Assembly: GCA_002839185.1 (NCBI GenBank)
Contig: PGXO01000010.1
Span: forward strand, 62,001-126,000
Reading direction: 5' to 3'
DNA from: Synergistetes bacterium HGW-Synergistetes-1
GTDB taxonomy: Bacteria > Synergistota > Synergistia > Synergistales > Synergistaceae
DNA length: 64,000 nucleotides
Made by a program: the position numbers and the translations under genes. Below, piece by piece: positions 12,166 through 47,376 of the stretch. Below the pieces are notes generated by a model, which saw only the letters and a list, made by a program, of their open reading frames with translations, was not told where the DNA came from and did no database searches. How positions within the stretch are numbered: the stretch's first letter is position 1; each line of letters begins with the position of its first letter.

Positions 12166-12168
12166 CTA

Positions 12169-12849: not shown

Positions 12850-12909
12850 ATCACACACCTCCGGTCAAAAGTGAGCGGTCTTCATGTTGACGCAGGCAGG
12901 GCTCTTTGA

Positions 12910-13716: not shown

Positions 13717-13840
13717 GCCGCCTTTCATTTGATCTTTCAAACTATATCACAAAAAAGCACAGGCGGAAAAATGTTGAGGACCCCCGGTGTGCAGTCCGGG
13801 AGCCCTCTGGGAGGAACGGATGATCTATTGTTTCTGTTCT

Positions 13841-18964: not shown

Positions 18965-18988
18965 ACTGAGAAGGGACGTGCAGTATAA

Positions 18989-19141
18989 ATGACAACTTAC
19001 GTTATTGGAGCAATGGTTTTCGCCGCAATGGGATATGCATTATACAGAGTGATCAGGAACAGCGTTTCAGGGAAATGCACCTGCGGATGCAGCGGCAACT
19101 GTCCAGGATGCAATTCAGCAAAATCAGGCCATATAAAATAA
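18989..19141 (+). CDS. FeoB-associated Cys-rich small membrane protein
   Basis: This 50-residue gene has one N-terminal membrane helix (TYVIGAMVFAAMGYALYRVI) and a cysteine-rich tail, KCTCGCSGNCPGC. That matches the FeoB-associated Cys-rich family, which is found directly after feoB in many anaerobes. GAAGGGACG lies upstream and the gap to feoB is 24 bases. The five cysteines probably bind iron or a metal near the channel mouth, but the role is not established. Confidence 0.8.
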   Translation: MTTYVIGAMVFAAMGYALYRVIRNSVSGKCTCGCSGNCPGCNSAKSGHIK

Positions 19142-19207
19142 CGACAGCCAGGCAGCGCTGTACCTCCTTACAGCTACCGCAGAAAAGATAAAGGCTCTCC
19201 TTCCTCC

Positions 19208-19243
19208 GCTCCGGGGGCAATAACCACCCCCCGGAGCTCTCTT
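19208..19243 (+). terminator. Terminator of the feo operon
   Basis: GCTCCGGGGG pairs with CCCCCGGAGC around a ten-base loop, followed by TCTCTT. Confidence 0.7.
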
Positions 19244-19278
19244 AATCCAACAGGCAAAAGATATAAGCGTCATAACGC

Positions 19279-20064
19279 TTAGCCCCTTATATTCTTCATC
19301 GCTCTCAAAGAACGTGCATAGTCATCTTCAAAAACTTCGATCGTCATTATCCTTTCTTCTCCACCTGACATCATATCTGTCACGGACTCAAAAAGATCAG
19401 GATCAAAGTACGAAAGATCCCTGTGGTCTGTCCCATCGGGCATCACACCGTGAATATGAAGCACTCTTACGTCATCTGCAAAACTCCCGGCAATTTCAAG
19501 CACAGGACGTCCGTATTTGACGAGGTGTCCCAAATCCAGGCAAATAGATGTACCTACGGCATTTGCAAGATGTTTGACATACCATGGATCATAATCCAAC
19601 GTTTCAATGCATACTTTCCTTTTGTCGCTGACCGCTTCCGCGATCATTCCTGCCGAACTGATACTCTTTTTAAGCCACTTTTCTATATCAGCACTGGGGG
19701 AATTTCCCCTCTTTTCGCCGACGACATGCAATATCCAGGCAAAGGGATCAAGCGGGGCAAAGAGACTGATCGTCCTCAGACACATATCTTCCCTCTCACG
19801 CCTCTCCAGATCAGAGCAGGATACAAATATTTCTGAGGGAAAGTGCACTGTACAGGACATATCCAGTTCGCTGCACAGATCCCTCATGATCAGGACTTCT
19901 TCTTTGTCTGGCATGTTTGAATATTCGGGAATATCGAAAAGCACTATCTCCATATCGCTCACATCGGGGGAAAGGCACCTCATATTATCGGCAAATGTAC
20001 CTGGAGTCACCCAAGAAGTCCCTCCAAAGCGCAGCCCCGGCAGTTCAAGAGCTCTTTTTATCAC
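19279..20064 (-). CDS. cbiR: AP-endonuclease-2/xylose-isomerase-like TIM barrel, probable cobamide-remodelling CbiR
   Basis: A 261-residue protein of the sugar-phosphate isomerase/AP endonuclease 2 barrel fold. It starts LRFGGTSWVTPGTFADNMRC and continues with the segment DMEIVLFDIPEYSNMPDKEE, a pattern I associate with CbiR, the phosphodiesterase that strips the lower ligand from salvaged cobamides. Candidate metal ligands occur in HFPSE, LHVVG, CIETLDY, CLDLGH, LHIHG and IEVFE. It is the last gene of the zinc-uptake operon, 21 bases after znuB, and lies between two cobalamin-controlled loci. An ordinary sugar isomerase is the main alternative. Confidence 0.6.
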   Translation of the reverse strand: MIKRALELPGLRFGGTSWVTPGTFADNMRCLSPDVSDMEIVLFDIPEYSNMPDKEEVLIMRDLCSELDMSCTVHFPSEIFVSCSDLERREREDMCLRTISLFAPLDPFAWILHVVGEKRGNSPSADIEKWLKKSISSAGMIAEAVSDKRKVCIETLDYDPWYVKHLANAVGTSICLDLGHLVKYGRPVLEIAGSFADDVRVLHIHGVMPDGTDHRDLSYFDPDLFESVTDMMSGGEERIMTIEVFEDDYARSLRAMKNIRG

Positions 20065-32068: not shown

Positions 32069-32274
32069 CTAGACTTTCATCATGCCGCCTTCTACTGCTG
32101 AGGCGGCCAGTTTTGCATATATGCCCAGGATACCTTTCAGTTCCTTCTGGGGGGGGTCTTTTCCAGTCTTTAAGGCGGGCTTCCAGTTCCTCGGGTGAAA
32201 GATCGACATCCAGCTTTTTCTTTTCGACATCTATGGTGATGATGTCTCCGTCCCTGACAGCGGCTATGGGACCG
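32069..32274 (-). pseudogene. ilvD: 3' fragment of ilvD (truncated and frameshifted)
   Basis: About 205 bases match the last portion of the intact ilvD gene at 38765-38972 in the same orientation, at roughly 88 percent identity by eye. The fragment keeps an ilvD-like C-terminus ending EGGMMKV before its TAG stop. It has an extra G in a run of eight (32152-32159 region), shifting the frame. Similarity ends sharply near 32274 at GGACCG. It lies directly after mazF and marks one border of the 6.5-kb cassette. Confidence 0.88.
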
Positions 32275-32284
32275 ATTGAAATAT

Positions 32285-34608: not shown

Positions 34609-36048
34609 CTATTTTTTGAGCCTTACATTGGGCTCTGCAGGCAGGCCAAAGAGAGGGATAAATCTGTCTAATCCTGTAAATGTCAGGATATATATCGAAA
34701 GCACGGTGATGATCGCCATGAAATTATAGTAGAGATCTCCGACCGTGAAAGTATAGAGAGGATAGACAGCGGCTGCAAGTCCCATATAGTACGCAACACC
34801 CGTATGCCATGGGATCAAAGCTGCGGTGTGCACGCCCACCGCGTCGGAAAAGAGCGCATTCCTGTTGCGAAGTATATATTTATCTTCCTCTGAACCCTCT
34901 ACATTATCGTCTACTATACCTTTGATTACTGGTCCCACTGTAGCCATCTGCGACATCTCTTCGTTAAGAGTCGCATTTATGATAAGGCAGAGAAGCCCAT
35001 TGCAGACCAAAAGATGACGCACACGTTTGCTTATTTTGACAAAGAACGCCGCAACAGGGCCAAATGCATCCATTCTTCGCATTACGGCCCCAAAACCCAT
35101 GGCCCAGAAGAGCATTATGACAGCCCAACTTCCCGCATCTTCAAAACCTGACTGGACCAATCCAATTACGTCTTTCAGCGAAGTTACAGTTCCTGCAAGA
35201 AAACCGAATAGGATTGCAAGGACAATGCCCGATGATAGGCATGAGATAGTATCCATTTTCATTATAGCCATCGTTATTACTATTATTACAGGAATTACCA
35301 TGTACAACGGCACACCTTCTGCAACCTGATCCAGCAGAGTCAAAACAGCCGGACGCTCTTCCTGAAGGATAGCTATTGTTTTCTCGGACATGGTGGCAAG
35401 TATCTGTGACGGGTCTCCGACTGTTTCCGGAAGCCCCATTGAAATGCTTACTGCGTAAAAACAAATTGCAGACAAAATAACACATATAGCTGACCATGGT
35501 GCCTGAGTCCTTACCCTGTCAACAACCTTTATGCCTTGCAGCCCCGAACTCAATATCGTTGTATCTGAAATCAACCCAATATTATCACCGAAGGCAGAAC
35601 CTCCGACACAAGCCGCAAAAGTCAGCGCCGGATTTCCTCCGACTACATTACACAACCACATAAAAATAGGAATACAAGCTGCGAATGTCCCCCATGATGT
35701 TCCTGTAGATACGGACAGAGCACAAGTGGTCAGGAAAGCAACCACTGCAACCGTTTTCCCCGTAACCCCAATGTTGATAAAGATCGATATAGCTGCTGCC
35801 CCGACACCTGTCGACATAAAAATTTCGGCAAGTGCATAGGCCAACATAAGTATAAAGGCCAAAAGAGTCGCTTCTTTGGCTCCCTCTACGCCTTCATTCA
35901 GCACTTCCGAGAATTTCATTTTCTCTGTAACCTTACAAATGGCTGCCGCAACAAAAAGCCCTATCGAAGCAGAGATAAGTATATCTACTCCATTCACTAC
36001 CATTACTGCCAAAAGAACAACGGGCGACAATTTTAACAATGCGATCAA
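34609..36048 (-). CDS. NhaC-family Na+/H+ or substrate antiporter
   Basis: A 479-residue membrane protein of about twelve helices. SVSTGTSWGTFAACIPIFMW and SAFGDNIGLISDTTILSSG with the conserved D-T are the NhaC-family core, and a second repeat includes NATLNEEMSQMATVGP. NhaC relatives include malate/lactate and amino-acid antiporters. Its place between amino-acid enzymes suggests import of their substrate in exchange for sodium or a product, although this is inference. Confidence 0.82.
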   Translation of the reverse strand: MIALLKLSPVVLLAVMVVNGVDILISASIGLFVAAAICKVTEKMKFSEVLNEGVEGAKEATLLAFILMLAYALAEIFMSTGVGAAAISIFINIGVTGKTVAVVAFLTTCALSVSTGTSWGTFAACIPIFMWLCNVVGGNPALTFAACVGGSAFGDNIGLISDTTILSSGLQGIKVVDRVRTQAPWSAICVILSAICFYAVSISMGLPETVGDPSQILATMSEKTIAILQEERPAVLTLLDQVAEGVPLYMVIPVIIVITMAIMKMDTISCLSSGIVLAILFGFLAGTVTSLKDVIGLVQSGFEDAGSWAVIMLFWAMGFGAVMRRMDAFGPVAAFFVKISKRVRHLLVCNGLLCLIINATLNEEMSQMATVGPVIKGIVDDNVEGSEEDKYILRNRNALFSDAVGVHTAALIPWHTGVAYYMGLAAAVYPLYTFTVGDLYYNFMAIITVLSIYILTFTGLDRFIPLFGLPAEPNVRLKK

Positions 36049-36071
36049 TGTAAAACCCCCTTTAGAAAATT

Positions 36072-36105
36072 AAAGTGTGCCGCCTTCCGGCAGGCACACT
36101 TTTTG
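36072..36105. terminator. Hairpin between the aminotransferase and antiporter genes
   Basis: AAGTGTGCC pairs with GGCACACTT around an inner GCC/GGC stem, with T-tracts on both strands. It lies four bases past the aminotransferase stop and may separate or attenuate the two cistrons. Confidence 0.65.
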
Positions 36106-36108
36106 AAA

Positions 36109-37218
36109 TTACTTCAGGCTTTCCTTTACAGAATCAGAAATAGACTTGAGTCCTCTAGCAAGCTCATCATGCAAAGGCCAGCCATAACCGATCCTCATGT
36201 ATCGTTTGCTCTGCTCAAACCAGTGCCCGGGACCTACATACGTACCGTATTTCTCATTCATTAAGCGGTAAACCTTTTCAACATCCACTTCTACTTCCGG
36301 TTTTATCCTCGGAAAACAAGTGCAGGCGGCTCTTGGTTCAACCCATTCCATGAATTCTTCCTGTTCTATCCACTCTTTAACAACTGCAAATCTATCCGCT
36401 ATAGTCGCGTCGTTTTGCTTGATCCATTCATCTTTTTGCGACAAAGCGACATAGCCGATATATTCATCGACTACACTGCCTCCAATACATACCTGTTCTT
36501 TGGCACAAAGCAGAAGATCGTTTATCTTTTTATTCCGGCATACAGTCCAGCCTATTCGAATACCGGGAATCCCATATGTTTTAGAGAGTGATGATACGGA
36601 TATTACCTTGTCAGAAAGAGAAGCTGCGACAGGAAGGACTTCATCCTTAAACATATCTCTGTATGTTTCGTCTATGAGAAGCCAGACATCGTGTTTTTCA
36701 GCTATTGCAATTACTTCTTTTAGCTCTGAAAGAGACATCATCGTTCCCGTAGGGTTGTGAGGGTTAGTCAATGAAATGTACTTAGTGTCAGGTTTTATCA
36801 TATACTTGAGTTTGTCAATATCTACTTTAAATCCTTCTTCAAACTTCTGGTCGAGATAGCTAATGTCGGCACCTATTGCACGAGGCGTTTCAATATTTGT
36901 TCCATAATTTGGTCTTGCGACTATCATTTTGTCGCCGGGTTCCAAGAGAGACGATGCAACTAAAAACAGAGCTGAAGCAGCACCGGCAGTAACAAGCACA
37001 TCATTTGGATCGTCTAAGCCGGACTGCTGAGCAATAGTTTCACGGAGGCGGGGATCTCCGAGGTGATCACCATAAGGAAGGATCATGTCGTCGATCACAA
37101 GTCCAAGACCTCTTATATTCCTGTCTCTAACTGAAGTCTCTGTTAGGTTGTTTTTTATTTTTTCATATCCTAACTGCTCAGGCGATTCTTTTTCTATGGA
37201 CATCCTTACGTATTTCAT
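36109..37218 (-). CDS. PLP-dependent class I/II aminotransferase
   Basis: A 369-residue fold-type I aminotransferase. Motifs: DPRLRETIAQQSG, VTAGAASALFLVASSLLEPG, SLTNPHNPTGTMMS, LIDETYRD with the PLP Asp, SSLSKTYGIPGIRIGW with the catalytic Lys, and MRIGYGW. The substrate cannot be predicted. It is the first gene of the cassette operon, divergent from the PucR regulator that probably controls it. Confidence 0.88.
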   Translation of the reverse strand: MKYVRMSIEKESPEQLGYEKIKNNLTETSVRDRNIRGLGLVIDDMILPYGDHLGDPRLRETIAQQSGLDDPNDVLVTAGAASALFLVASSLLEPGDKMIVARPNYGTNIETPRAIGADISYLDQKFEEGFKVDIDKLKYMIKPDTKYISLTNPHNPTGTMMSLSELKEVIAIAEKHDVWLLIDETYRDMFKDEVLPVAASLSDKVISVSSLSKTYGIPGIRIGWTVCRNKKINDLLLCAKEQVCIGGSVVDEYIGYVALSQKDEWIKQNDATIADRFAVVKEWIEQEEFMEWVEPRAACTCFPRIKPEVEVDVEKVYRLMNEKYGTYVGPGHWFEQSKRYMRIGYGWPLHDELARGLKSISDSVKESLK

Positions 37219-37263
37219 TTTATTATCCTCCTGTTGTCACATGTTGCTTCCGGCGTTTCTATT

Positions 37264-37422
37264 ACACGCGCGCACGTGTTTACAACAAGAAGTTTATTGT
37301 CATGAAAAACGCAAATCAAACACCATTTTATATAATAAAAAACAATTATTGACCACTTTTTTGTAAATAAACAACAGGTAAGCCTAACTACTTTTGCTAA
37401 AATAGGATAGAATATAGCAAAA
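37264..37422. promoter_or_regulatory. Divergent control region of the cassette
   Basis: This AT-rich 325-base gap between the aminotransferase and pucR-type genes holds two candidate operator sites. An imperfect palindrome, ACACGCGCGCACGTGT, lies at 37264-37279. A perfect inverted repeat, TTTTGCTA/TAGCAAAA, with a 15-base spacer lies at 37392-37422. A TAGAAT hexamer sits in the second spacer. No gene is visible. Confidence 0.5.
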
Positions 37423-37543
37423 TTATTTCTTTTAAAACCATAAAAATCTACATATTCAACTAGTTAACAAAAAATTGGATCGTTTTTTGGTTTTGAATCA
37501 CATAGGTAATATTATAAAAAATTACAACATTTGGGTGGTTTTT

Positions 37544-38731
37544 ATGTATTACATGATCTCAGATTTTTTGAACACATATGGATCTAATGTCTCTTTGATA
37601 GCCGGCAGTGGAGGGCTTTCGAGGATCGTTAAGGACGTTGGAATACTTGACTATGAACTGGACACTTCTTTAAGGAGCAAATATTTCCACACAAGTCTTT
37701 TTAGGGATCAACTTGTGCTGACAACTTTTCTTTGCGCAAAAGATGACATATCAATGATCGGAGAGGGCATAAAACACCTTCTCAAGCAAGATGCAAGCGC
37801 TTTGGCAATAAGAAATGTATTTCATCTCCCCATCCCCGAATCTGTACTGAGATATGCTGATTCCAAAAATTTTCCAATAATATTGATCAATTCGATGGAT
37901 ATATATTTTGAAAAGATCATTTATGACGTCAACAGATATGTCGAACGAATGGCAGATATTAACTTTATGCAAAATGAGGTAAATATACTGCTTTCACGAA
38001 AACTTTCAACAGATGAGGTCAGAGACCATGCGAAACTCATAGATCCGTCGTTTGAGGAAAGGTATATAGCCATATATTTTATGAGCCGGGACTATTTTAG
38101 CGAATCAGACTTTCTTGAATGCTTTGAAAGATATGACAAGAGTTGTTTTTCAACACCAGCAAGTACTATGTGCCTCTACAAACACGGCGCATTTTTGTTC
38201 TATTCCTGCGATGACACCTCAGTAATGTTCGATGACAATTTTGTGTCCCAGGCTGTAAAAAAGATCTTCCCGGACCCATCTAACTACACAATAGGAATAA
38301 GCAGACCGCACTTCAGCCTTGGGGAATTTTCAGTCTGCCTCAGAGAAAGTCTTTGTGCAGCACTTTTAAACAAAAATCTCCAAAAGCCTTTTTTGAGATA
38401 CAGTGAGCTTGGGGCATATGAGATAATTTTCCCCTTTGCAAAAAGCAAAGAAATGCAGGATTTTAAGAAAAAAGTTCTGGAGCCAATTAATGAGTGCGAC
38501 GCAGAGAACAACACAAACTTGCTTGAAACACTTACCCAATATGTACTATCCGGCTGCAAAATGCGCGTTGCAGCAAAAATGACTTTACAGCATGAAAATA
38601 CAGTCCGCTACAGATTAGAAAAGATAGCTATACTGACCGGACTCGATTTTAAATCCGAGGCACAGCGGGAAGAGCTCTCACTAGCGGTAAAAATTGACAT
38701 ATGCAGCGGACTGCTTGGAGATGAAGTATGA
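37544..38731 (+). CDS. PucR-family transcriptional activator
   Basis: A 395-residue regulator. The N-terminal PucR domain (GSGGLSRIVKDVGILDYELD onwards) is followed by a GGDEF-like middle part, and the C-terminal HTH_30 reads LSGCKMRVAAKMTLQHENTVRYRLEKIA. The family typically controls purine, GABA or amino-acid catabolism in response to a metabolite. ATG 37544 has GGGTGG upstream; an earlier start at 37475 is possible. It is divergent from the aminotransferase-antiporter-hom-racemase operon, its obvious target. Confidence 0.85.
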   Translation: MYYMISDFLNTYGSNVSLIAGSGGLSRIVKDVGILDYELDTSLRSKYFHTSLFRDQLVLTTFLCAKDDISMIGEGIKHLLKQDASALAIRNVFHLPIPESVLRYADSKNFPIILINSMDIYFEKIIYDVNRYVERMADINFMQNEVNILLSRKLSTDEVRDHAKLIDPSFEERYIAIYFMSRDYFSESDFLECFERYDKSCFSTPASTMCLYKHGAFLFYSCDDTSVMFDDNFVSQAVKKIFPDPSNYTIGISRPHFSLGEFSVCLRESLCAALLNKNLQKPFLRYSELGAYEIIFPFAKSKEMQDFKKKVLEPINECDAENNTNLLETLTQYVLSGCKMRVAAKMTLQHENTVRYRLEKIAILTGLDFKSEAQREELSLAVKIDICSGLLGDEV

Positions 38732-38764: not shown

Positions 38765-40444
38765 TTAAAATTTCATCATTCCGCCCTCGGCTGCTGAGGC
38801 AGCGAGTTTTGCGTATATGCCCAGGATGCCTTTCAGTTCCTTCTGAGGAGGTCTTTTCCAATCTTTTAGGCGGGCTTCAAGCTCCTCGGGAGAGAGGTCT
38901 ACATCCAGTTTTTTATTTTCAACATCTATGGTGATGATGTCTCCGTCCCTGACTGCGGCTATGGGGCCGCCTTCAGCGGCTTCGGGGGATATGTGGCCGA
39001 CAAAGCAGCCGTTGTTGGTTCCGGAGAAACGGCCGTCTGTAATTATCGCGGTCTTTTTTGCAAGGCCCCTGCCGTAAAGCAGTTTCATGGCGAAATACAT
39101 TTCACGCATTCCGGGGCCGCCTTTCGGGCCCTCGTAACGGATGACCAGGACATCGCCCTCTTTTATATTCCCGTCAAGGATCGCCCGGTTCGCATCTTCT
39201 TCGCAGTCAAAGACTCTTGCAGGTCCGGAAAAATGGTACATCGACGGATCCATAGCGATGGGTTTTGTTATCCCTGTCCCCGGAGCAAGGTTACCCCGCA
39301 TCACTGCCAGACCGCCCGATTTGCAGAAAGGATCTTCCTTTGTACGTATCACACGCCTGTCAACTCCGAAGGGACTTGACCGATCCTCAAGGTTCTCGCC
39401 AAGGCTCTTTCCGCTTACAGTCATGCAAGAGAGGTCTATCTCGTTTTCCAGCTCCTTCATGACCTGCGGGATGCCTCCGGCGCGGTAAAAGTCCTCCATA
39501 TCGTACTCTGAGGCAGGATTTACCATAGCGATAGACGGGATATTTTGACTCGCCCTGTCGTAAATATCTATCATTGTCCCGGGTGCTATACCTATCTCGT
39601 TCCCTATGGCTGAAAGGTGAATGAAGCAGTTAGTCGAGCCGCCGGTAGCGACCATTATCTTCGCAGTGTTTTCAAGGGAGTCTTTCGTAATGATGTCGTG
39701 CGCTGTGATGTTTTGCCTGACAAGTTCGACGATCTTTTTCCCGGTCTCTTCCGCTGCCCTGGAACGGGCAGCGCTTGTAGCGGGTATAAGGGACGATCCC
39801 GGGAGGGACATGCCCATGGCTTCTGCCGCGCAACCCATCGAGTTGGCGGTGCCGTAGTATGAGCATGAACCGCATGAGGGTGCGGCATTGTCTTCGAGCA
39901 TTGATAAAGTCTCTTTTGTGATCCGTCCGGCACTCAGCATACCCACAGCCTCCGATACAGAGGTGGAGTCGCTTTTGCGCCCGTCAAACGAAACTCCTCC
40001 GGCCATTGGACCTCCGACAAGCAATATCGCCGGAATGCCCAGCCTGGCGGCCGCCATCAGCATGCCCGGAACTATTTTATCGCATGATCCAAGCATAACA
40101 ATGCCATCAAGCCTGTGGGCTTCGGCCATTGCTTCGATGTCGCATGCTATAAGGTCTCTGGTGGGGAGTATGTATTTCATGCCGTTATGTCCGCATGACT
40201 GTCCGTCACAGGCGGCTATTACGCCAAACTCGACCGCCATTCCGCCTGCCCTGTATATGCCCTTTTTTACGAACTCAGAAAGGTTCCTGAGGTTGTAATG
40301 TCCTGGCACCAGCTCGTTCCATGAGTTTGCTATTCCTATTAGGGGACCCTTTAGGTCTTCGTCAGAGAAGCCCATAGATTTATAAAGGGCCCTGTTTTCA
40401 GTAAACACCGGATCTGAAAGTATTTCGGAACTTCTGAATTTCAT
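38765..40444 (-). CDS. ilvD: Dihydroxy-acid dehydratase (IlvD)
   Basis: A 559-residue IlvD/Edd-family Fe-S dehydratase. Cluster and Mg ligands appear in ACDGQSCGHNG, LGSCDKIVPGM and APSCGSCSYYGTANSM. The active-site serine region TDGRFSGTNNGCFVGHISPEA is present. Length and start fit branched-chain amino-acid synthesis (dihydroxyisovalerate to ketoisovalerate). No other ilv gene is here, and it follows the GntR gene by only 28 bases. It may instead serve the neighbouring hydroxy-acid pathway. Its 3' end is partly duplicated at 32069-32274. Confidence 0.88.
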   Translation of the reverse strand: MKFRSSEILSDPVFTENRALYKSMGFSDEDLKGPLIGIANSWNELVPGHYNLRNLSEFVKKGIYRAGGMAVEFGVIAACDGQSCGHNGMKYILPTRDLIACDIEAMAEAHRLDGIVMLGSCDKIVPGMLMAAARLGIPAILLVGGPMAGGVSFDGRKSDSTSVSEAVGMLSAGRITKETLSMLEDNAAPSCGSCSYYGTANSMGCAAEAMGMSLPGSSLIPATSAARSRAAEETGKKIVELVRQNITAHDIITKDSLENTAKIMVATGGSTNCFIHLSAIGNEIGIAPGTMIDIYDRASQNIPSIAMVNPASEYDMEDFYRAGGIPQVMKELENEIDLSCMTVSGKSLGENLEDRSSPFGVDRRVIRTKEDPFCKSGGLAVMRGNLAPGTGITKPIAMDPSMYHFSGPARVFDCEEDANRAILDGNIKEGDVLVIRYEGPKGGPGMREMYFAMKLLYGRGLAKKTAIITDGRFSGTNNGCFVGHISPEAAEGGPIAAVRDGDIITIDVENKKLDVDLSPEELEARLKDWKRPPQKELKGILGIYAKLAASAAEGGMMKF

Positions 40445-40472
40445 AATAATATCTTCCTTCGGCTATCTGCTT

Positions 40473-41138
40473 CTACTTAAGAAAATAATCTTTCATTATA
40501 TTGCTCTCGCTCTTTGCGATATGTTCGTAGAGCAAAGATGAGAGGCCCCTGGCATCCCTGTCTCGAAGCTTTTCCAGTATCTCAACGTGCTGACCGATCG
40601 TTTCATGGATGTTTGCCAGGGACTGCGCAGAAAGCTTCTGGAAACGTTTTATCTGCGCGTGGTATGTTGTGATGATGGCACCAATACGTTTATTAGTCGC
40701 GTATTTCGTTATGGTCAGGTGTAGGAGCAGATCCATGTCAGAGACGCGAGTCAGGTCTACCTCTCCTGCGAGCGCAGCCTTTTTGAGGACTTTCCAGCCT
40801 CTCTCCATCTCGTCTATCTCCTCTTCCGGGATCCTGTTTACTGCGGAAAGTGCTGCGAAGGGTTCCAGCAGTTTGCGTATATCGTATATCTCTTTGAGAT
40901 CTTCGAGGGATATTTCTGATACAAAGGCGCCTTTTTGGGGAATTATCTTGACGTATCCGTCCTGTTCCAGGCTGCGCAGGGCTTCACGGATAGGCGTTCT
41001 GCTGACCCCTATCTCCCTGGCAAGCTGGTTTTCGGGCAATGGAGCTCCCATCTCGATCTCTCTTGATTCGATAGCGTCACGGATCCATTCGTATGCTTTG
41101 GTCCAGCTGGCCTTTTCTTGGTCATGCATTAATGACAC
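40473..41138 (-). CDS. GntR-family regulator, FCD (FadR) subfamily
   Basis: A 221-residue repressor. Winged-helix GAPLPENQLAREIGVSRTPI and REALRSLEQDGYV, then the all-helical FCD ligand domain with the metal-ligand pattern DLLLHLTITKYATN and the late histidines (THETIGQHVEILE-like HETIGQHVEI). FCD regulators sense organic acids. It is divergent from the larA-acnX-TRAP operon and co-directional with ilvD. Two TGTATACA sites in the shared control region are good operator candidates. Confidence 0.88.
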   Translation of the reverse strand: MSLMHDQEKASWTKAYEWIRDAIESREIEMGAPLPENQLAREIGVSRTPIREALRSLEQDGYVKIIPQKGAFVSEISLEDLKEIYDIRKLLEPFAALSAVNRIPEEEIDEMERGWKVLKKAALAGEVDLTRVSDMDLLLHLTITKYATNKRIGAIITTYHAQIKRFQKLSAQSLANIHETIGQHVEILEKLRDRDARGLSSLLYEHIAKSESNIMKDYFLK

Positions 41139-41159
41139 CCTCCATTATTTTAACTTAAC

Positions 41160-41167
41160 TGTATACA
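41160..41167. promoter_or_regulatory. Candidate GntR operator 1
   Basis: TGTATACA, within the perfect ten-base palindrome CTGTATACAG, lies 21 bases upstream of the gntR start. The same octamer recurs at 41417. Confidence 0.55.
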
Positions 41168-41416
41168 GCAAACATACATCTTTATCACAGTTTTGTCCAT
41201 ATATTTCATTGAATATCCGGCAATATACTACATCCGGCCGGATCGATAAACAAAAATCTGTTTACAAGCTGAACCTTTGATATAAGAGGATTCACAAATT
41301 TCAGAGTTGACATAAATATTAGCAGATACTATTATGCAAACATATTTAAGAAAACTTTTTTGACCGGACGATCTATTCATAGGGTAATGCCAAAACGGAA
41401 TGGGATAATCTTTGCA

Positions 41417-41424
41417 TGTATACA
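41417..41424. promoter_or_regulatory. Candidate GntR operator 2
   Basis: TGTATACA lies 50 bases upstream of the larA ATG. The octamer matches the first site and the inverted TGTATACA style of FadR-subfamily operators. The rest of this 337-base gap has no gene. TTGACC at 41360 is a possible -35. Confidence 0.55.
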
Positions 41425-41474
41425 GACTACATACTTGCGATACACAAGTCACATACCATAGAAGGGCAAAGCTG

Positions 41475-42764
41475 ATGAGATACGACATACCATACGGAGA
41501 TAAGAAAGTATTTTTTGAGGCGCCGGAAGGAGCTGTCATATTCGAAGGAAAAATGACCAGTATCCCCGGAATCAAAGATTTGGAAGGTGCACTGATCTCG
41601 GCGCTTGAATCGCCTATCGGAGCCCCCTCACTCAAAGACCTCGCCAGGGACAAAAAAAATATTGTATTTTTGGTCGAGGACAACACACGAAGCACTCCTC
41701 TCCACATCATCATGCCTATCATTACAGATTACCTGAACGAAAACGGTGTTCCGGACAGCGCTATGAGTTTCCTCACAGCTCCCGGAACCCACAGGCTCAT
41801 GACCAACGAAGAAATCCTGGAAAAACTCGGTGCTGAAATGGTAAGGCGTTTCAAAGTGCTACAGCACGACGCCAACGTGAGCGAAGACATGAAGGATCTC
41901 GGAACAGTCCCTGCAGGCGATTATAAGATCCCTGTACACGTAAACAAATACGCATTGGGGGCTGATCTCCTGGTCGGCATCGGCAATATAGTGCCGCACT
42001 GCGACGCCGGTTATTCGGGCGGCGCAAAGATACTTCAGCCGGGAGTCTGTGATTTCGTTACCACATCAGCTACCCACGCGGCGGCAGGCTTCTGCCCTGA
42101 CATTCCCCTAGGAATGGCAGACGGCAATCCATGCCGCATGGGCATGGAAGAGGTGGCAAAGATCGCCGGACTCGCCTTTATCGTCAACACAGTAAAGAAC
42201 TATGAGGGAGAGGTAGCCGGCATTTTTGCAGGAGACTTCATCAAAGCTCACAGAGAGGGAGTAAAGCTTGCGAAAAGATCCTACAGTATAAGTGTGCCGG
42301 AACCTGCAGACATCGTCATCGTAAGCTCTTCACCATCAGATATGGACTATTGGCAGGCCTGTAAAGGTACGACCTGCGCATACTTCGCAGTCAAAAAAGG
42401 CGGAGTAGTGATATTCGCTGCTCCATGCACAGAAGGACTGGCTCACAACCATCCCCGTTTCAGAGAGTGGCTCTCGCTGCCCCTGGACGAGGTCCTCAGA
42501 AGGCTTCTCGCGGCTTCCCCTGAAGATGTGGAAGCTGACATGGTCTCTGCGGTGCTGTCTGTCTGCAACTGCCGGGCCAGGGACAAGGCGAAAATATACT
42601 GCGTCTCTGACGGCCTGACAGGAGAAGATCTTGCCGCGATGCAGTACAAGCCATTCCCCACAGTTCAGGCTGCTCTTGATGAAGCAATGCGCCTGATCCC
42701 CAACGCCACAATAGGCATTATTCCAAAGGGCGGCATTTCACTGCCGGTCCTCGAAAATATATAG
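41475..42764 (+). CDS. larA: LarA-superfamily nickel-dependent 2-hydroxyacid racemase/epimerase
   Basis: A 429-residue protein of the LarA superfamily, which uses a nickel pincer nucleotide to interconvert 2-hydroxyacid stereoisomers by hydride transfer. Visible motifs are VEDNTRSTP, APGTHRLMTNEEI with the conserved His, and SGGAKILQPGV, whose Lys covalently holds the cofactor in characterised LarA. Start ATG 41475 is preferred over 41412, which lies in the operator region. The cofactor genes larBCE are not in the window. Association with aconitase X and a TRAP carrier means the substrate is probably not lactate (inference). Confidence 0.85.
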   Translation: MRYDIPYGDKKVFFEAPEGAVIFEGKMTSIPGIKDLEGALISALESPIGAPSLKDLARDKKNIVFLVEDNTRSTPLHIIMPIITDYLNENGVPDSAMSFLTAPGTHRLMTNEEILEKLGAEMVRRFKVLQHDANVSEDMKDLGTVPAGDYKIPVHVNKYALGADLLVGIGNIVPHCDAGYSGGAKILQPGVCDFVTTSATHAAAGFCPDIPLGMADGNPCRMGMEEVAKIAGLAFIVNTVKNYEGEVAGIFAGDFIKAHREGVKLAKRSYSISVPEPADIVIVSSSPSDMDYWQACKGTTCAYFAVKKGGVVIFAAPCTEGLAHNHPRFREWLSLPLDEVLRRLLAASPEDVEADMVSAVLSVCNCRARDKAKIYCVSDGLTGEDLAAMQYKPFPTVQAALDEAMRLIPNATIGIIPKGGISLPVLENI

Positions 42765-42784
42765 CAAAAGAAAGGCGGCTGACT

Positions 42785-44002
42785 ATGTTTCTTACGGATG
42801 AAGAAAAACGGATACTTGACGGAGCCGAAGGTGCCGGAAAGCAGAAAGCAATGGAAATGCTCTATGCGCTCGGGCTTACCTTCGACGCGGAAAAGCTGAT
42901 CCCGATAAAGCGTGCTCATGTAGCGCTGAGCGGACAGGAGGGCGACACTTACTGGTGCGAGCTCCTTGTAGAAGGTGGCGCTACCTGCGCTGTTCCGCCA
43001 ACGACCAATCCATACTGGAACACTGACTACCTGACCAAATTCTATGACGTAACTAAAGAGGAACTCGACCTGGCTAACCGCACAGGCGAAGCATACCGCA
43101 AGATAGGCGCGATACTGACATACCACTGCGCTCCAGGAGTATGCTCCAACGTACCATTCCTTGGAGAGCACATAGCATTTTCGGAATCAAGCGCGACTCC
43201 CTATGTGAACGGAGCCCTGGGTGCACGCTCAAACCGTGAGTCATCAATAAGCGCGCTTGCTGCCGCAGTAGTCGGAAAGACCCCTTATTACGGATACCAC
43301 CTAGACGAAAACAGGCACGGCGACATTCTTATTGAAGTCGATGCCGAACTCAGCGAATGTTACGACTGGGGCATCCTCGGGCACTGCATCGGAGAGATGG
43401 CAGGATCGCTTGACCCTGTCCTTGTATTCAAAAATAAGGTGCTTCCCTCGCAGGAAGACTTCCTTTACTTCGGAGCCGAGGCCGCGACAAGCGGAGCAGT
43501 CGCAATGTATCACATGGTGGGCATCACGCCTGAGGCATTCACTCTCGAAGCAGCTTTCGGCGGCAAAAAAGTTCCCGCCCCCGCAGCACTTATCACCAAT
43601 AAAACACTGAAGGACCAAGAGACAAAACTTACAGCAGCTACAGGTGACATCAACCTGGTAATGCTTGGCTGCCCTCACTACACATACAGCCAGATCCTCG
43701 AAATCGAAAGGCTCTTCGCCGGAAGGAAGGTCAGCCACAACACCGCCTTCTGGATACTCGCGGAATCCGGTGCCGTAGAGCTTGCCGAGCGTTCCCGACT
43801 CCGCCAGAAGCTGGAGCTTTTGGGAGTCCGCATGGTCGGAAACACCTGCATCGACGAACCCTGCTGGAAATCATTCGAAGGCAGCCTTGGCGTGACAGAC
43901 TCTCCTAAATGCGCATACTACAGGGAGCGCCGCGGACAGCCATTCGCTATCCGCAGGCTTTCAGAGTGTGTCGAGGCAGCAATAAAAGGGAGGCTGGACT
44001 AA
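42785..44002 (+). CDS. Aconitase X, large (catalytic) subunit
   Basis: A 405-residue AcnX/DUF521 protein. TNPYWNTDYLTKF, ILTYHCAPGVCSN, FSESSATPYVNGALGARSNR and the Cys pair in NTCIDEPCW match the family. AcnX enzymes are Fe-S dehydratases; known members act on cis-3-hydroxy-L-proline or mevalonate 5-phosphate. The separate large and small subunits match the two-chain type. The gap to larA is 20 bases and its stop overlaps the small subunit start. The actual substrate is unknown. Confidence 0.88.
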   Translation: MFLTDEEKRILDGAEGAGKQKAMEMLYALGLTFDAEKLIPIKRAHVALSGQEGDTYWCELLVEGGATCAVPPTTNPYWNTDYLTKFYDVTKEELDLANRTGEAYRKIGAILTYHCAPGVCSNVPFLGEHIAFSESSATPYVNGALGARSNRESSISALAAAVVGKTPYYGYHLDENRHGDILIEVDAELSECYDWGILGHCIGEMAGSLDPVLVFKNKVLPSQEDFLYFGAEAATSGAVAMYHMVGITPEAFTLEAAFGGKKVPAPAALITNKTLKDQETKLTAATGDINLVMLGCPHYTYSQILEIERLFAGRKVSHNTAFWILAESGAVELAERSRLRQKLELLGVRMVGNTCIDEPCWKSFEGSLGVTDSPKCAYYRERRGQPFAIRRLSECVEAAIKGRLD

Positions 44003-44430
44003 TGTCTGAGGATATGAAAGTCTATAAGTGCCGCAAGATAGTAAAGGGCAGCGCATGCGGAGAGGCTGTCGTCTCCACTGACGCGATGTGTTTCTACCTG
44101 ACTGACCCAGAGACCGGCATTGTAATAGAAAGAAATCATGCGATACATGGCAAAAGCATCGCCAACAAGATACTGGTACTCAAATCAGGCAAGGGCAGCT
44201 CTGTCGTCCAGGTAGACGGTTTCTACCAGCTGTGGGTCAAAAACAATCTACCTGCCGCAATCATACTCAAGGATACAGAACCTGTCATAGTATCCTCTGC
44301 CGTAATGGTCGGATGTACGATGGTCGACCGCATGGAGTCCGACCCCTATGAAGCCATCGCGGACGGTGACTACGTAGAGGTCGACGCTGACAAGGGTGAG
44401 ATCCGCGTTAGAAAAAATAAGCAAGCATAA
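44002..44430 (+). CDS. Aconitase X, small (swivel) subunit
   Basis: A 142-residue DUF126 protein. KIVKGSACGEAVVSTDAMCF, the TGIVIERNHAIHGKS block and LKSGKGSSVVQVDGFYQLWV are the AcnX swivel-domain hallmarks, with the Ser of GKGSS at the active site. ATG 44002 overlaps the large-subunit TAA (TAATG). The longer open frame from 43909 is only a shadow. Confidence 0.9.
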   Translation: MSEDMKVYKCRKIVKGSACGEAVVSTDAMCFYLTDPETGIVIERNHAIHGKSIANKILVLKSGKGSSVVQVDGFYQLWVKNNLPAAIILKDTEPVIVSSAVMVGCTMVDRMESDPYEAIADGDYVEVDADKGEIRVRKNKQA

Positions 44431-44507
44431 AAATAGGTAGTTACGCCGCAAAAAGGGCGTTTTCTATAATTCTGTAATAAGCAAAAAATTAAAGGGGGAA
44501 ACAGCAA

Positions 44508-45500
44508 ATGAAGAAGTTTTTGTCAGTATTTATGGTTATTTTAGTAGTCGCTGTATTCGCGGGTACCGCTTTCGCGGCTCCGGAATACACTATCAAGGTC
44601 GGTTACATCGGTTCCGATTCGCACCCGACAATGAAGGCAATGAAAGAAGTCTTCGTGAAACAGGTCGAAGAGGGTTCAAAGGGCAAGATCAAGGTCGAGC
44701 TCTATCCCAACGGACAGCTTGGCGGTGACCGTGAGCTTTCAGAAGGAGTACAGATGGGCACGATCCAGATGGCTATCCCCTCTTCGTCCGCGCTCGCAGG
44801 ATTCGACAAGAGGATTCAGGCTCTAGACCTGCCCTATCTCTTCACGTCAAGAAAGACCGCATTTGAAGCAGTAGACGGTATTCTCGGAGAGAAACTTAAC
44901 GGCTACCTGGCTGCCAAAGGCATACTTATTCTCGGCTACCAGGAGAACGGATTCCGCCACGTGACCAACAGCAAGAAACCCATCAAGAGCCCTGCAGACC
45001 TCAAAGGCCTGAAGATCCGTACGATGGAAAACCCGATGCACATCGCATTCTTCAAGGCACTCGGAGCAAACCCTACACCAATGAGCTGGGGCGAACTCTA
45101 CACCGCGCTGCAGCAGGGAACTGTTGATGCACAGGAAAACCCCTATGCAATGATCGACGACGGTAAGTTCTATGAAGTCCAGAAGTTTGTTTCCGAAACA
45201 GGGCACGTCTTCTCCTACGAGATCCTTATCGCAAACAAGAAGTTCATGGAGAAACTCCCCGCAGATCTCAACAAGCTCGTAGTCAAGGCTGCCAAGGACG
45301 CTACAGCAAAACAGCGTCAGCTTATGGAAAAAGAGGAAGGCGCATTCAAGCAAAAAGTAATCAAAGCCGGAATGAAGGCAAACTCCCTCACAACAGAAGA
45401 GAAAAAACCCTTTGTAGAAGCAACAGCGAAGGTCTACCCAATGTTCGAAAAGGATCTCGGCAAGGATCTTATGGAAATAATCAAGAAAGTACAGAAATAA
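44508..45500 (+). CDS. dctP: TRAP transporter substrate-binding protein (DctP family)
   Basis: A 330-residue periplasmic receptor. Signal peptide MKKFLSVFMVILVVAVFAGT ends at AFA. The mature part has VGYIGSDSHPTMKAMKEVF, YPNGQLGGDRELSEGVQMGT, LKGLKIRTMENPMHI with the Arg that binds the carboxylate, and GTVDAQENPYAMI. It captures a carboxylic acid for the TRAP carrier. It follows AcnX by about 80 bases, and a strong hairpin lies after it. Confidence 0.93.
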   Translation: MKKFLSVFMVILVVAVFAGTAFAAPEYTIKVGYIGSDSHPTMKAMKEVFVKQVEEGSKGKIKVELYPNGQLGGDRELSEGVQMGTIQMAIPSSSALAGFDKRIQALDLPYLFTSRKTAFEAVDGILGEKLNGYLAAKGILILGYQENGFRHVTNSKKPIKSPADLKGLKIRTMENPMHIAFFKALGANPTPMSWGELYTALQQGTVDAQENPYAMIDDGKFYEVQKFVSETGHVFSYEILIANKKFMEKLPADLNKLVVKAAKDATAKQRQLMEKEEGAFKQKVIKAGMKANSLTTEEKKPFVEATAKVYPMFEKDLGKDLMEIIKKVQK

Positions 45501-45517
45501 GAGTAAGTTTTGCACCA

Positions 45518-45551
45518 CCGCTTCCGCCCTGCGGGACGGAAGCGGCTTTTT
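45518..45551 (+). terminator. Attenuating hairpin between dctP and dctQ
   Basis: CCGCTTCCG pairs with CGGAAGCGG and is followed by CTTTTT. A partial terminator here would make much more binding protein than membrane subunits, as is common for TRAP operons. Confidence 0.75.
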
Positions 45552-45577
45552 GGCATTAAGAGGGGGTCGAACCTGCA

Positions 45578-46084
45578 ATGACTGTGAGTAAATTCCTTGA
45601 TAATTTTGAAGAGTACTTCTGCGTTTGGACGATGGCCATAATGACAGTTATAGTCTTTATTCAGGTCGTAATGAGATATGTTTTTTCAAACTCGCTCTCG
45701 TGGAGCGAGGAATTGGCCCGTTTCATTTTCCTATGGCTCTCCTGGATCGGCGCCAGCTACGCAGTAAAAGAAAGAAGCCACTTCAGGGTGGAAATGTTTG
45801 CTAATATGATAAAAGGAAAATCACGCATATATTTTGAATATATGATTTTGATAGTATGGTTCGTATTCAGCTTCTTCCTCGCATGGCAGGGAACATTGCT
45901 GCTGATCTTTCTGCAGGAAACAGGCCAGGAATCAGCTGCAATGCAGATACCTATGACATGGCCTTACGCCTCGGTTCCTATTGGATGTGCCATGATGTGT
46001 CTCAGGCTCATCGTTGAACTTTATAAACTCCACAAAAACGGTCTGCCTGTTCCGGCTTTACAGTCAGCAGAGACAGCGAAATAG
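45578..46084 (+). CDS. dctQ: TRAP transporter small permease (DctQ)
   Basis: A 168-residue protein with four predicted helices. FIQVVMRYVFSNSLSWSEEL, ARFIFLWLSWIGASYAVKER and the following SHFRVEM match the DctQ family. It stabilises the large permease in the inner membrane. Confidence 0.93.
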   Translation: MTVSKFLDNFEEYFCVWTMAIMTVIVFIQVVMRYVFSNSLSWSEELARFIFLWLSWIGASYAVKERSHFRVEMFANMIKGKSRIYFEYMILIVWFVFSFFLAWQGTLLLIFLQETGQESAAMQIPMTWPYASVPIGCAMMCLRLIVELYKLHKNGLPVPALQSAETAK

Positions 46085-46095
46085 GGGGCGGGACC

Positions 46096-47376
46096 ATGGA
46101 AGCTGTTATCCTTTTTTCTATCCTGATAATCACCATAGCGTTAAGTATACCTATCGGAATAACTCTCGGACTCGCCACAGGCATCGCGATGTGGCTGACA
46201 TCAGACATCCCTATGATAATGCTGGCACAGAAATCTGTGACAGGTCTGGATTCCTTCCCTCTTCTGGCTATCCCCTTCTTTATCCTCGCTGGGGCCCTGA
46301 TGTGCAACGGAGGCATTTCCCGCCGTCTTGTAGCGCTGGCTGAAAGTCTTGTCGGCTACATCGTCGGAGGCCTTGCTATGGTAACGGTCCTCGCCTGCAT
46401 GTTCTTTGCGGCAATATCGGGATCGGGACCGGCAACTGTCTCGGCCATCGGCTCCTTTATGATCCCATCTATGAAGGAGAGGAAGTACGATGCAGGTTTC
46501 GCAGCTGCGATAACCGCAGCTGCGGGAACGATCGGGGTCATAATCCCCCCGAGCATACCTTTCGTCATCTACTGTGTCGTTGCTCAGTGCTCGATAGGCG
46601 ATATGTTCATTGCCGGCATCATCCCCGGGATCATAATAGGAATTGCCCTGATGTTAGTATGCTACATAACTGCCAGGAAGCGCAATTACAAAACCATGAC
46701 TGATCGTCCAAGGTTCTCTGAGGTCGCCAAAGCCTTTAAAGAATCTTTCTGGGCACTGCTTGTTCCCCTCATTATCCTAGGAGGCATATACGGAGGCATT
46801 TTCACTCCTACGGAAGCAGCTGTCGTCGCAGTTGTGTATTCTGTGGTAATAGGGAAATTCGTTTACCGAGAGCTGGACATGAAGGTCCTCTATGACTGTC
46901 TAAAATCTACAGGGCTCATCAACGGGGCAACTTCGTTCCTCATAGGGCTCTCGATGGCCTTTGCGAGCTATCTTGCGATGGCACAGATACCGGCTAAGAT
47001 AGCTGCATGGCTCACTACTTTCGTTGACAGTCCATTTCTCCTCCTCATGATCATCAACGTTTTTCTTCTTGTCATCGGTTGCTTCGTGGACAACATTGCC
47101 GCAGTCATCATCCTGACGCCTATACTGCTTCCGGTAGTCAAGATGATAGGAATAGACCCGATACACTTTGGGCTCATAATCACCGTCAACCTTGCTTGCG
47201 GCTTTATCTCGCCACCATACGGGATCAACCTCTTCGTTGCATCTGCAATATCCGGGGAGAGCATTGAGAGTATTTCAAGGGAGATCATCCCGGCTTTCGT
47301 TGCAATGGTGGGATGCCTGCTTCTCTTTACATATTTCCCTATCTTCAGCATGGGACTGCTGCAGATGATGAGGTAA
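46096..47376 (+). CDS. dctM: TRAP transporter large permease (DctM)
   Basis: A 426-residue protein with about twelve helices. IPFFILAGALMCNGGISRRL, FAAISGSGPATVSAIGSFMI, AAGTIGVIIPPSIPFVIYC and IILGGIYGGIFTPTEAAVVA are the DctM signature. It carries the sodium-driven transport path. It completes a three-part TRAP system with DctP and DctQ, 11 bases after dctQ. Confidence 0.95.
   Translation: MEAVILFSILIITIALSIPIGITLGLATGIAMWLTSDIPMIMLAQKSVTGLDSFPLLAIPFFILAGALMCNGGISRRLVALAESLVGYIVGGLAMVTVLACMFFAAISGSGPATVSAIGSFMIPSMKERKYDAGFAAAITAAAGTIGVIIPPSIPFVIYCVVAQCSIGDMFIAGIIPGIIIGIALMLVCYITARKRNYKTMTDRPRFSEVAKAFKESFWALLVPLIILGGIYGGIFTPTEAAVVAVVYSVVIGKFVYRELDMKVLYDCLKSTGLINGATSFLIGLSMAFASYLAMAQIPAKIAAWLTTFVDSPFLLLMIINVFLLVIGCFVDNIAAVIILTPILLPVVKMIGIDPIHFGLIITVNLACGFISPPYGINLFVASAISGESIESISREIIPAFVAMVGCLLLFTYFPIFSMGLLQMMR

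Follow-up and report, generated by a model that had tools for sequence, protein, structure and literature searches.

A LarA racemase, a two-subunit aconitase X and a TRAP transporter in one Synergistota operon: a candidate route from imidazolelactate to urocanate

The genome of Synergistetes bacterium HGW-Synergistetes-1 (G000) contains an operon joining a LarA-superfamily nickel-pincer nucleotide (NPN) racemase, both subunits of aconitase X (AcnX-L and AcnX-S), and a TRAP transporter, and raises the question of which acid these proteins handle. The operon lies on contig C10 (PGXO01000010.1) within the 64-kb stretch analysed here, to which we refer as the window. We consider it probable that the operon feeds into histidine catabolism, leading from imidazolelactate to urocanate. 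On balance we also lean towards a wider reading, in which (i) this subclass of AcnX would be an imidazolelactate dehydratase that needs neither CoA nor a radical, imidazole replacing the activating carboxylate, (ii) an aminotransferase, a 2-hydroxyacid dehydrogenase, and this AcnX would form a HutH-independent route from histidine to urocanate in Bathyarchaeia, with one Thermoplasmata and one Tepidanaerobacteraceae lineage as probable further cases, and (iii) this AcnX together with LarA and the TRAP transporter would allow Synergistota to live on imidazolelactate of either hand.

Related loci were collected from 52 genomes of the same family and by a two-peptide-pattern scan of 84,980 species, each represented by one genome (34 loci). 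Neighbourhoods were counted within 10 kb of AcnX at 47 loci of the AcnX group that includes the window, with 13 loci of other AcnX clades for contrast. Truncated AcnX genes (L043, L051, L062, L084, and L085), the frame-split L049, and second copies of one genome are excluded from the 47. Also outside the counts are L078, which was missed by the gene caller and holds GntR, a D-2-hydroxyacid dehydrogenase (D2HADH), AcnX, and TRAP genes, and L232, where only the small AcnX subunit was recognised and HutU and HutI are present. Since many loci lie on short contigs, the 47-locus counts are lower bounds.

In Synergistota, two Bacillota groups, and Bathyarchaeota, relatives of the window AcnX are part of histidine-utilisation (Hut) clusters or adjoin them. 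A hut gene occurs less than 10 kb from AcnX at 11 of the 47 loci versus none of the 13 loci of other clades; this count leaves out HutH-like matches of less than 45% identity, seen at L042 and L044 within the group and at L050 outside it. The fullest single stretch, L063, carries HutH, GntR, AcnX, LarA, formate-tetrahydrofolate ligase, a second AcnX, TRAP genes, HutU, HutI, an FchA-like gene, and FtcD, and its LarA is 57% identical to that of the window. L065, L068, and L041 are further clear cases, the DctM permeases of L041 and L065 being 69 and 76% identical to the window protein. NCBIfam cut-offs are exceeded by HutU (L068, L079, and L063), HutH and FtcD (L063), and HutI (L041); the FchA-like protein of L063, at 102 bits, misses its cut-off of 275, and the L041 ureohydrolase falls under the cut-offs for both HutG and agmatinase. 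L068, from a Tepidanaerobacteraceae draft genome, reads D2HADH-AcnX-transporter-HutU-regulator-HutU-FtcD-HutI-FchA-like.

In the Bacillota locus L079, a single 701-aa open reading frame (ORF) joins AcnX-S (aa 16-141) to a full HutU (aa 156-698, 974 bits). This fusion adjoins LarA, AcnX-L, and D2HADH, and the genome has an ordinary HutH-HutU pair elsewhere. No second AcnX-S::HutU fusion was among the matches listed for the 154 genomes of the class of G071; in these same genomes, all seven other AcnX-S matches listed with 48-63% identity lie within 10 kb of HutU. L227 comprises D2HADH, an aminotransferase match (30%), HutH, HutU, AcnX-L, and AcnX-S, L229 reads HutU-HutI-FchA-FtcD-AcnX-L-AcnX-S-LarA, and one locus has the order D2HADH, aminotransferase match (30%), HutH, HutU, AcnX-L, AcnX-S, HutU, HutI, FchA, FtcD, AcnX-L, AcnX-S, LarA. 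Among the seven weaker AcnX-S matches listed (31-42%), the five examined (L234-L238) had no hut gene. Breakdown of thiourocanate or ergothioneine was considered and rejected: the first HutU copy of L068 and the HutU of L079 score 785 and 974 bits against the HutU cut-off of 375, and 628 and 739 bits against the thiourocanate hydratase cut-off of 930.

In the available part of PMC13320830, histidine is converted to urocanate by HutH. The distribution of HutH was compared with that of AcnX in 151 mostly draft genomes from the order of G063, whose AcnX contig is titled Bathyarchaeota. Counting any match, HutU was found in 52 genomes (51 over cut-off and a partial match in G172) and HutH in 39 (37 over cut-off and fragments in G069 and G197). 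AcnX of the group was found full-length in 12 (at least 459 bits, the next group reaching at most 278) and as fragments in G076 (216 and 191 bits; the source of L084). AcnX is present in 10 of the 14 genomes with HutU and no HutH match, as opposed to 1 of the 38 with both Hut enzymes and 2 of the 99 without HutU; with phylogeny ignored, the mutual exclusion of HutH and AcnX among the 52 HutU genomes has a Fisher probability of 6e-7. FtcD, HutI, and HutU stand together in at least three genomes without a HutH match (L142, L143, and L182). The only genome with both HutH and AcnX among those with HutU holds HutH, an aminotransferase, AcnX, and D2HADH inside 7 kb (L152). Contig ends bear on some of the remaining cases: HutU lies near or at a contig end in G154 and G199, which have neither a HutH match nor AcnX of the group, and G043, with AcnX, HutH, HutI, and no HutU match, has a contig that stops 166 bp past HutH. 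Outside this order, HutU is present with no HutH match in the genome of the Thermoplasmata locus L070, and likewise in the draft genome of L068. Of the 26 genomes reached through an AcnX locus, 23 have HutU over its cut-off and 12 have HutH over its own. As a separate observation, G012, G013, and G045 have 11-14 HutH-type matches per genome, most under the HutH cut-off and some fragmentary, which resemble ammonia-lyase-like paralogues.

Enzymes acting at C2 are recurrent partners of AcnX in this group. LarA or an NPN isomerase of group 22 is near AcnX at 28 of the 47 loci and a 2-hydroxyacid dehydrogenase at 22; a C2 enzyme of any kind (LarA/NPN group 22, D2HADH, or GlcD-like) is found at 41 of 47, compared with 1 of 13 loci of other AcnX clades. 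A TRAP transporter (DctM) is near at 23 loci, an aminotransferase (at least 35% identity) at 13, and IlvD at 6. LarA is replaced by group 22 in L040, adjoining AcnX, and in L056 (the L040 protein was checked with NCBIfam, the other group-22 calls rest on similarity), and by D2HADH in L025 and nearly all Bathyarchaeota loci; Etf-like and GlcD-like genes accompany LarA in L064 and L066. Given its recurrence at 28 loci, the LarA-AcnX arrangement is more than chance, and since LarA may be exchanged for group-22 or D2HADH proteins or accompanied by GlcD-like ones, the constant theme is a C2-hydroxy acid.

These neighbourhoods agree with much of the initial annotation, a reading made from the sequence alone, which had proposed import of a chiral hydroxy acid, inversion at C2, and dehydration. 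The repeated occurrence of an importer and a C2 racemase with AcnX as one unit supports this logic, and larA beside acnX is a conserved pairing. The same reading had kept in view an ordinary or accidental assembly of genes; AcnX lies outside the clades of known substrate, and LarA lies under the cut-offs of its models. Its suggestion that IlvD dehydrates a second diol within the system fared less well: despite its place behind the same regulator, IlvD was rejected as a core part (6 of 47 loci), and G000 has two more full-length IlvD-type genes, at C2:109495 (761 bits) and C11:16336 (590 bits, cut-off 618).

Several side observations concern these neighbourhoods. In G012 and G013, IlvD paralogues lie approximately 10 and 16 kb from AcnX, distant AcnX genes share a stretch with IlvD-like genes (36-38% identity) in L235 and L237 from the class of G071, and the window itself has, at about 32145-32276 on the minus strand, a 44-position IlvD-type C-terminal stretch (40 bits, in a 76-aa frame) that may be a gene remnant. 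A formate/nitrite transporter follows the LarA-AcnX-TRAP operon in L030, L034, and L035 (by Pfam in L034, by similarity in the others), together with a second DctQM pair. Genes upstream of LarA-AcnX in L064 and L066 resemble a bifurcating 2-hydroxyacid dehydrogenase, those of L064 scoring under the equivalog cut-offs. In L040 the group-22 isomerase precedes AcnX, which is followed by an XdhA-like molybdenum hydroxylase subunit (11984-14272) and then by a second TRAP transporter and a 43% identical LarA (18312-19595).

In the window, each of the eight genes is an intact ORF at the coordinates first assigned to it, the Pfam and NCBIfam names agree with the original ones at scores well over the Pfam cut-offs, and the layout originally described, with gntR and ilvD leftward and larA, both AcnX genes, and dctPQM rightward, is correct. 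The features are as follows:
38765..40444, minus strand: IlvD-family dehydratase paralogue behind gntR (TIGR00110 661 bits; Pfam IlvD 389 and 241 bits).
40473..41138, minus strand: GntR/FCD regulator, divergent to larA (Pfam GntR 65.5 bits, FCD 84.7 bits).
41160..41177, no strand: putative GntR operator 1, TGTATACAGCAAACATAC, by gntR (a conserved repeat with a predicted function).
41307..41335, plus strand: sigma-70-like promoter of the larA operon, TTGACA-17-TATTAT (a consensus match at 11 of 12 positions only).
41417..41434, no strand: putative GntR operator 2, TGTATACAGACTACATAC, by larA (a conserved repeat with a predicted function).
41475..42764, plus strand: LarA-superfamily NPN racemase, proposed imidazolelactate racemase (Lar_N 164.9 bits, LarA_C 43.2 bits).
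42785..44002, plus strand: AcnX large subunit (type II), proposed imidazolelactate dehydratase (PF04412 384 bits; catalytic residues kept; relatives linked to Hut).
44002..44430, plus strand: AcnX small (swivel) subunit with the general-base Ser (PF01989 84.6 bits; aligned to 7cnr_B).
44508..45500, plus strand: DctP, TRAP substrate-binding protein, proposed imidazolelactate receptor (PF03480 325 bits).
45578..46084, plus strand: DctQ, TRAP small permease (PF04290 130.8 bits).
46096..47376, plus strand: DctM, TRAP large permease (PF06808 403.2 bits).

By Pfam the operon thus encodes a complete TRAP transporter (DctP, DctQ, and DctM). The rightward genes are closely spaced: acnX-L follows larA after 20 bp, the two AcnX genes overlap by one base, and gaps of 77, 77, and 11 bp precede dctP, dctQ, and dctM; 28 bp separate gntR from ilvD, both leftward. 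The most likely start of LarA is 41475, and that of AcnX-S is 44002, where a TAATG shares one base with the AcnX-L stop as read from the DNA. A pyridoxal phosphate (PLP) aminotransferase (36109-37218) and a PucR-type regulator (37475-38731) adjoin the operon by Pfam and NCBIfam, preceded by an ORF (34609-36048) guessed by eye to be an NhaC-type antiporter; the stretch 34609-38731 looks like a separate unit.

The 336-bp divergent gap holds two copies of TGTATACA-N4-ACATAC (41160-41177 and 41417-41434). With a looser pattern, TGTATACA-N(1-12)-ACATAC, these remain the only two matches in the window, compared with none in 100 shuffles, and the cores TGTATACA (first copy) and GTATACAG (second copy) are identical across five aligned loci, window included. 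Because two conserved repeats occupy the divergent gap and the sigma-70-like promoter stands upstream of the second, a single regulator probably controls both arms.

The window AcnX has the type II layout, with PF04412 and PF01989 on adjoining separate genes. AcnX-L keeps the Fe-S cysteines C115, C296, and C355 as well as E134, S135, K375, and Y379, and AcnX-S keeps the base Ser, these being functional residues of the solved enzymes (PMC8184944); the catalytic and Cys positions of AcnX-L are constant over the 48 rows of the group, with the exception of L082 (two positions undetermined or altered). In a tree built by a quick method and containing some long branches, the 48-row group is separate from the hydroxyproline and mevalonate enzymes (SH-aLRT 99). 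The position of Asp203, which binds the amine of hydroxyproline, is absent or Ala in the alignments, the hydroxyproline-type model is matched at 202.5 bits against a cut-off of 700, and the mevalonate-phosphate loop G48-V49-S50-N53 is replaced by LSGQE (LSGQEGD); with these landmark residues gone, both hydroxyproline and mevalonate phosphate were rejected as substrates. The distal loop position is Glu or Asp in 47 of the 48 rows, and the loop HVALSGQEGDTY is identical in the window and in L063, L065, and L068, which sit with Hut genes. In the available portion of PMC8184944, AcnX catalysis is described as abstraction of the C2 proton with expulsion of the C3 hydroxyl, and the functions of AcnX types IIc-f are given as unknown in that of PMC10040528. 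A sister AcnX group (L023, L027, L029, and L033) occurs with an IOR-like 2-oxoacid oxidoreductase, an ADP-forming acyl-CoA synthetase, and a group-22-like isomerase, with D2HADH in L023 and L033, and is likely an energy-yielding route for another hydroxy acid.

The window LarA keeps the catalytic His108 and His174 and the NPN-binding R75, K184, and H200 in alignment, and the one NPN-biosynthesis gene searched for, LarC, is present in G000 (C5:44994-46115). At positions F175/F176, after the second catalytic His, the racemase codes given in the accessible part of PMC11770544 are F,F for lactate, E,V for gluconate, and Y,F for hydroxyglutarate. The window has Cys-Asp, and its relatives mostly Ser-Asp or Cys-Asp, with Asp in 21 of 24 rows (near-duplicates included) and L040, L069, and L079 as exceptions. 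This Asp and the acidic loop residue of AcnX would suit an imidazolium. LarA lies under the cut-off of all six NCBIfam LarA-type models matched, and annotation as malate racemase (LarAH6/MAR) was rejected, the score being 293.7 bits against a cut-off of 500 and the W358/T359 pair, whose register varies between three alignments, giving the MAR pair H/Q-K in none. Two further observations concern LarA and LarC. In L026 (2658-3965, minus strand) a LarA of window type has Pro for the catalytic His108 and may be a single-His variant, and LarC matches occur as two halves, on different contigs or more than 0.7 Mb apart, in G003, G004, G012, G013, G042, G043, and G045-G048.

In the proposed mechanism, the TRAP carrier would bring in imidazolelactate, the 2-hydroxy analogue of histidine, and LarA would swap its D and L forms so that either could be used. 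The AcnX heterodimer, with the Fe-S cluster as Lewis acid on the hydroxyl and a Ser alkoxide as base, would then take off water to give urocanate, which would pass to glutamate via HutU, HutI, and formimino enzymes, HutU and HutI being encoded elsewhere in G000. GntR may repress at the two operators until an imidazole acid is bound. Where HutH is absent, another urocanate maker is needed; the recurrent aminotransferase, 2-hydroxyacid dehydrogenase, and C2 racemase could convert histidine via imidazolepyruvate to imidazolelactate, the enzyme left over, AcnX, is a dehydratase, and imidazolelactate minus water is urocanate. In HutH-bearing Synergistota, G000 included, LarA and TRAP make best sense as a means of using imidazolelactate from outside.

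A number of points weigh against this proposal. The weakest step is chemical: known AcnX enzymes expel a 3-hydroxyl, imidazolelactate carries a 2-hydroxyl, and the binding mode must therefore be inverted. Aconitase carries out both eliminations in turn, on citrate and isocitrate, so an inverted mode with imidazole in the place of the carboxylate is conceivable for AcnX by analogy. The window operon is not beside Hut genes, being on C10 with HutI, HutH, and HutU on C1 (C1:176784-182652), and as G000 has HutH, the module would be an addition here and not a replacement. At the acidic loop position Met is found in L041, a locus with HutI and HutU, and the LarA proteins of L079 (Leu) and L069 (Met), both beside HutU, are without the Asp. 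Among solved structures, the closest relatives of DctP point rather to small hydroxy acids, and the model assigns no role to the IlvD of this genus, a local addition behind the same regulator. The HutH pattern is likewise qualified. The exclusion is not significant when phylogeny is considered, with just two independent pairs on supported branches; the AcnX label needs six changes on the tree of the 52 HutU proteins (at least two on supported branches) and is clumped, and the paired test is without power. HutH absence may be a gap, the genomes being mostly draft, and the sample may be enriched, 11 of the 13 AcnX genomes being already known from the pattern scan. Four genomes with HutU and no HutH lack AcnX of the group, two have AcnX without HutU, and one has HutH and AcnX. 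With labels clumped and the paired test powerless, we place weight on the agreement of the Bathyarchaeota, Thermoplasmata, and Tepidanaerobacteraceae lineages.

The separation of the window operon from Hut genes is also what leaves some room for a reading in which the window subclade would apply this chemistry to a different aryl-lactate (phenyl-, hydroxyphenyl-, or indole-lactate), imidazolelactate being used only by Hut-linked relatives. Window AcnX-L shares 62% identity with the L025 protein and 60% with the L068 protein, specificity may drift, and the IOR-linked sister AcnX group suggests aryl substrates. Nevertheless, we regard this as unlikely, given that the distal loop is common to the window and Hut-linked loci and that L063 also combines AcnX with LarA and TRAP, as L041 and L065 do with TRAP, at the identities given above.

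A 2,3-dihydroxy acid was our first reading, based on AcnX regiochemistry and DctP relatives, and was demoted once the Hut linkage appeared. LarA would epimerise C2 of a small sugar acid of erythronate or threonate type, AcnX would remove the 3-hydroxyl to give an enol and then a 2-oxo acid, and IlvD would take the other epimer. This retains the known AcnX regiochemistry (PMC8184944, same portion), gives a place to the IlvD behind the same regulator, and recalls the IOR-like oxidoreductase and ADP-forming acyl-CoA synthetase of the sister group. The solved DctP chains nearest to the window protein are 4pdh, 4p47, and 4p9k; in the available part of PMC11668362 ten DctP homologues are compared, three with sugar acids, two ligand-free (4P47 included), and the rest with pantoate or erythronate, 4pdh and 4p9k not being named there. 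The dihydroxy acid leaves unexplained the Hut linkage (11 of 47 loci; seven of seven matches listed), the HutU fusion, and the HutH pattern, and IlvD is scarce among the loci; we therefore judge it unlikely.

The reverse direction, in which AcnX would hydrate urocanate to imidazolelactate for oxidation and transamination to histidine or for excretion, draws on the reversibility of aconitase-type reactions and on the dehydrogenase and aminotransferase near AcnX at 22 and 13 of the 47 loci. It appears quite unlikely, as urocanate would be without a maker in the genomes of L142, L143, and L182, which show no HutH match and have FtcD, HutI, and HutU together, and as the TRAP importer suggests uptake. 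Reuse of known activities, with LarA as malate racemase, AcnX as hydroxyproline or mevalonate-phosphate dehydratase, and incidental Hut links, is highly unlikely in view of the scores (294 against 500 and 202 against 700 bits), the loss of the landmark residues of both AcnX substrates, and the lack of the MAR pair in all three window alignments.

In the proposed imidazolelactate route, the protein families and the lower pathway are known; the predicted enzyme activity and the entry would be new. The initial annotation had known of no described pathway with this gene set; the literature examined does not contradict this, but the relatives beside Hut genes, which point to imidazolelactate and urocanate, had been overlooked. 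AcnX joined with LarA, urocanate, or imidazolelactate was absent from the literature matches listed, a scope mostly outside subscription papers, and a literature search found no paper with both "aconitase X" and "LarA". Aconitase is not mentioned in the main text of PMC7583248 and PMC11770544, as far as the available part of each extends. As urocanate absorbs at 277 nm, the proposal opens an AcnX group outside the known enzymes to an assay that is specific, cheap, and falsifiable, and it names a possible substrate for a LarA group matching none of the LAR, GntE, and HGR codes. If it is true, HutH would not be the sole entry to histidine degradation, archaeal genomes with a seemingly incomplete Hut pathway would be complete, and the range of substrates for aconitase-type dehydration would be widened. 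In older work on Pseudomonas, imidazolyl-lactate was reportedly used via a dehydrogenase and an aminotransferase.

Compared with known systems, the window AcnX shares family, base Ser, and the Glu/Ser/Lys/Tyr set with the type I hydroxyproline enzyme, from which it differs in its two genes, the loss of the Asp203 position, its other partners, and the proposed 2-hydroxy substrate. With type IIb phosphomevalonate dehydratase it has in common two subunits and three Fe-S cysteines (C110, C283, and C342 in the Tk enzyme), whereas LSGQE stands in place of the phosphate loop (G48...N53). The window LarA has all cofactor-binding and catalytic residues of the nickel-pincer racemases (LarA, MAR, HGR, GntE, and HHR), yet its Cys-Asp is unlike the LAR, GntE, and HGR codes in the accessible part of PMC11770544, and the cut-offs of the models are missed. 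Relative to the Hut pathway (HutH, HutU, HutI, and HutG/FtcD), with whose genes AcnX stands together in several phyla, the proposed urocanate would join at HutU, formed from a hydroxy acid by dehydration and not from histidine by a 4-methylideneimidazole-5-one (MIO) ammonia-lyase. The reductive Stickland branch of aromatic amino acids reaches an aryl-acrylate through transamination, reduction, and dehydration (via aryl-pyruvate and aryl-lactate), and its dehydration uses a CoA-linked radical enzyme. The acrylate intermediate is common to that branch, as described in the available part of PMC13320830, and to the route proposed here, in which an aconitase-type enzyme would carry out the dehydration without CoA and the product would pass onward to the Hut pathway.

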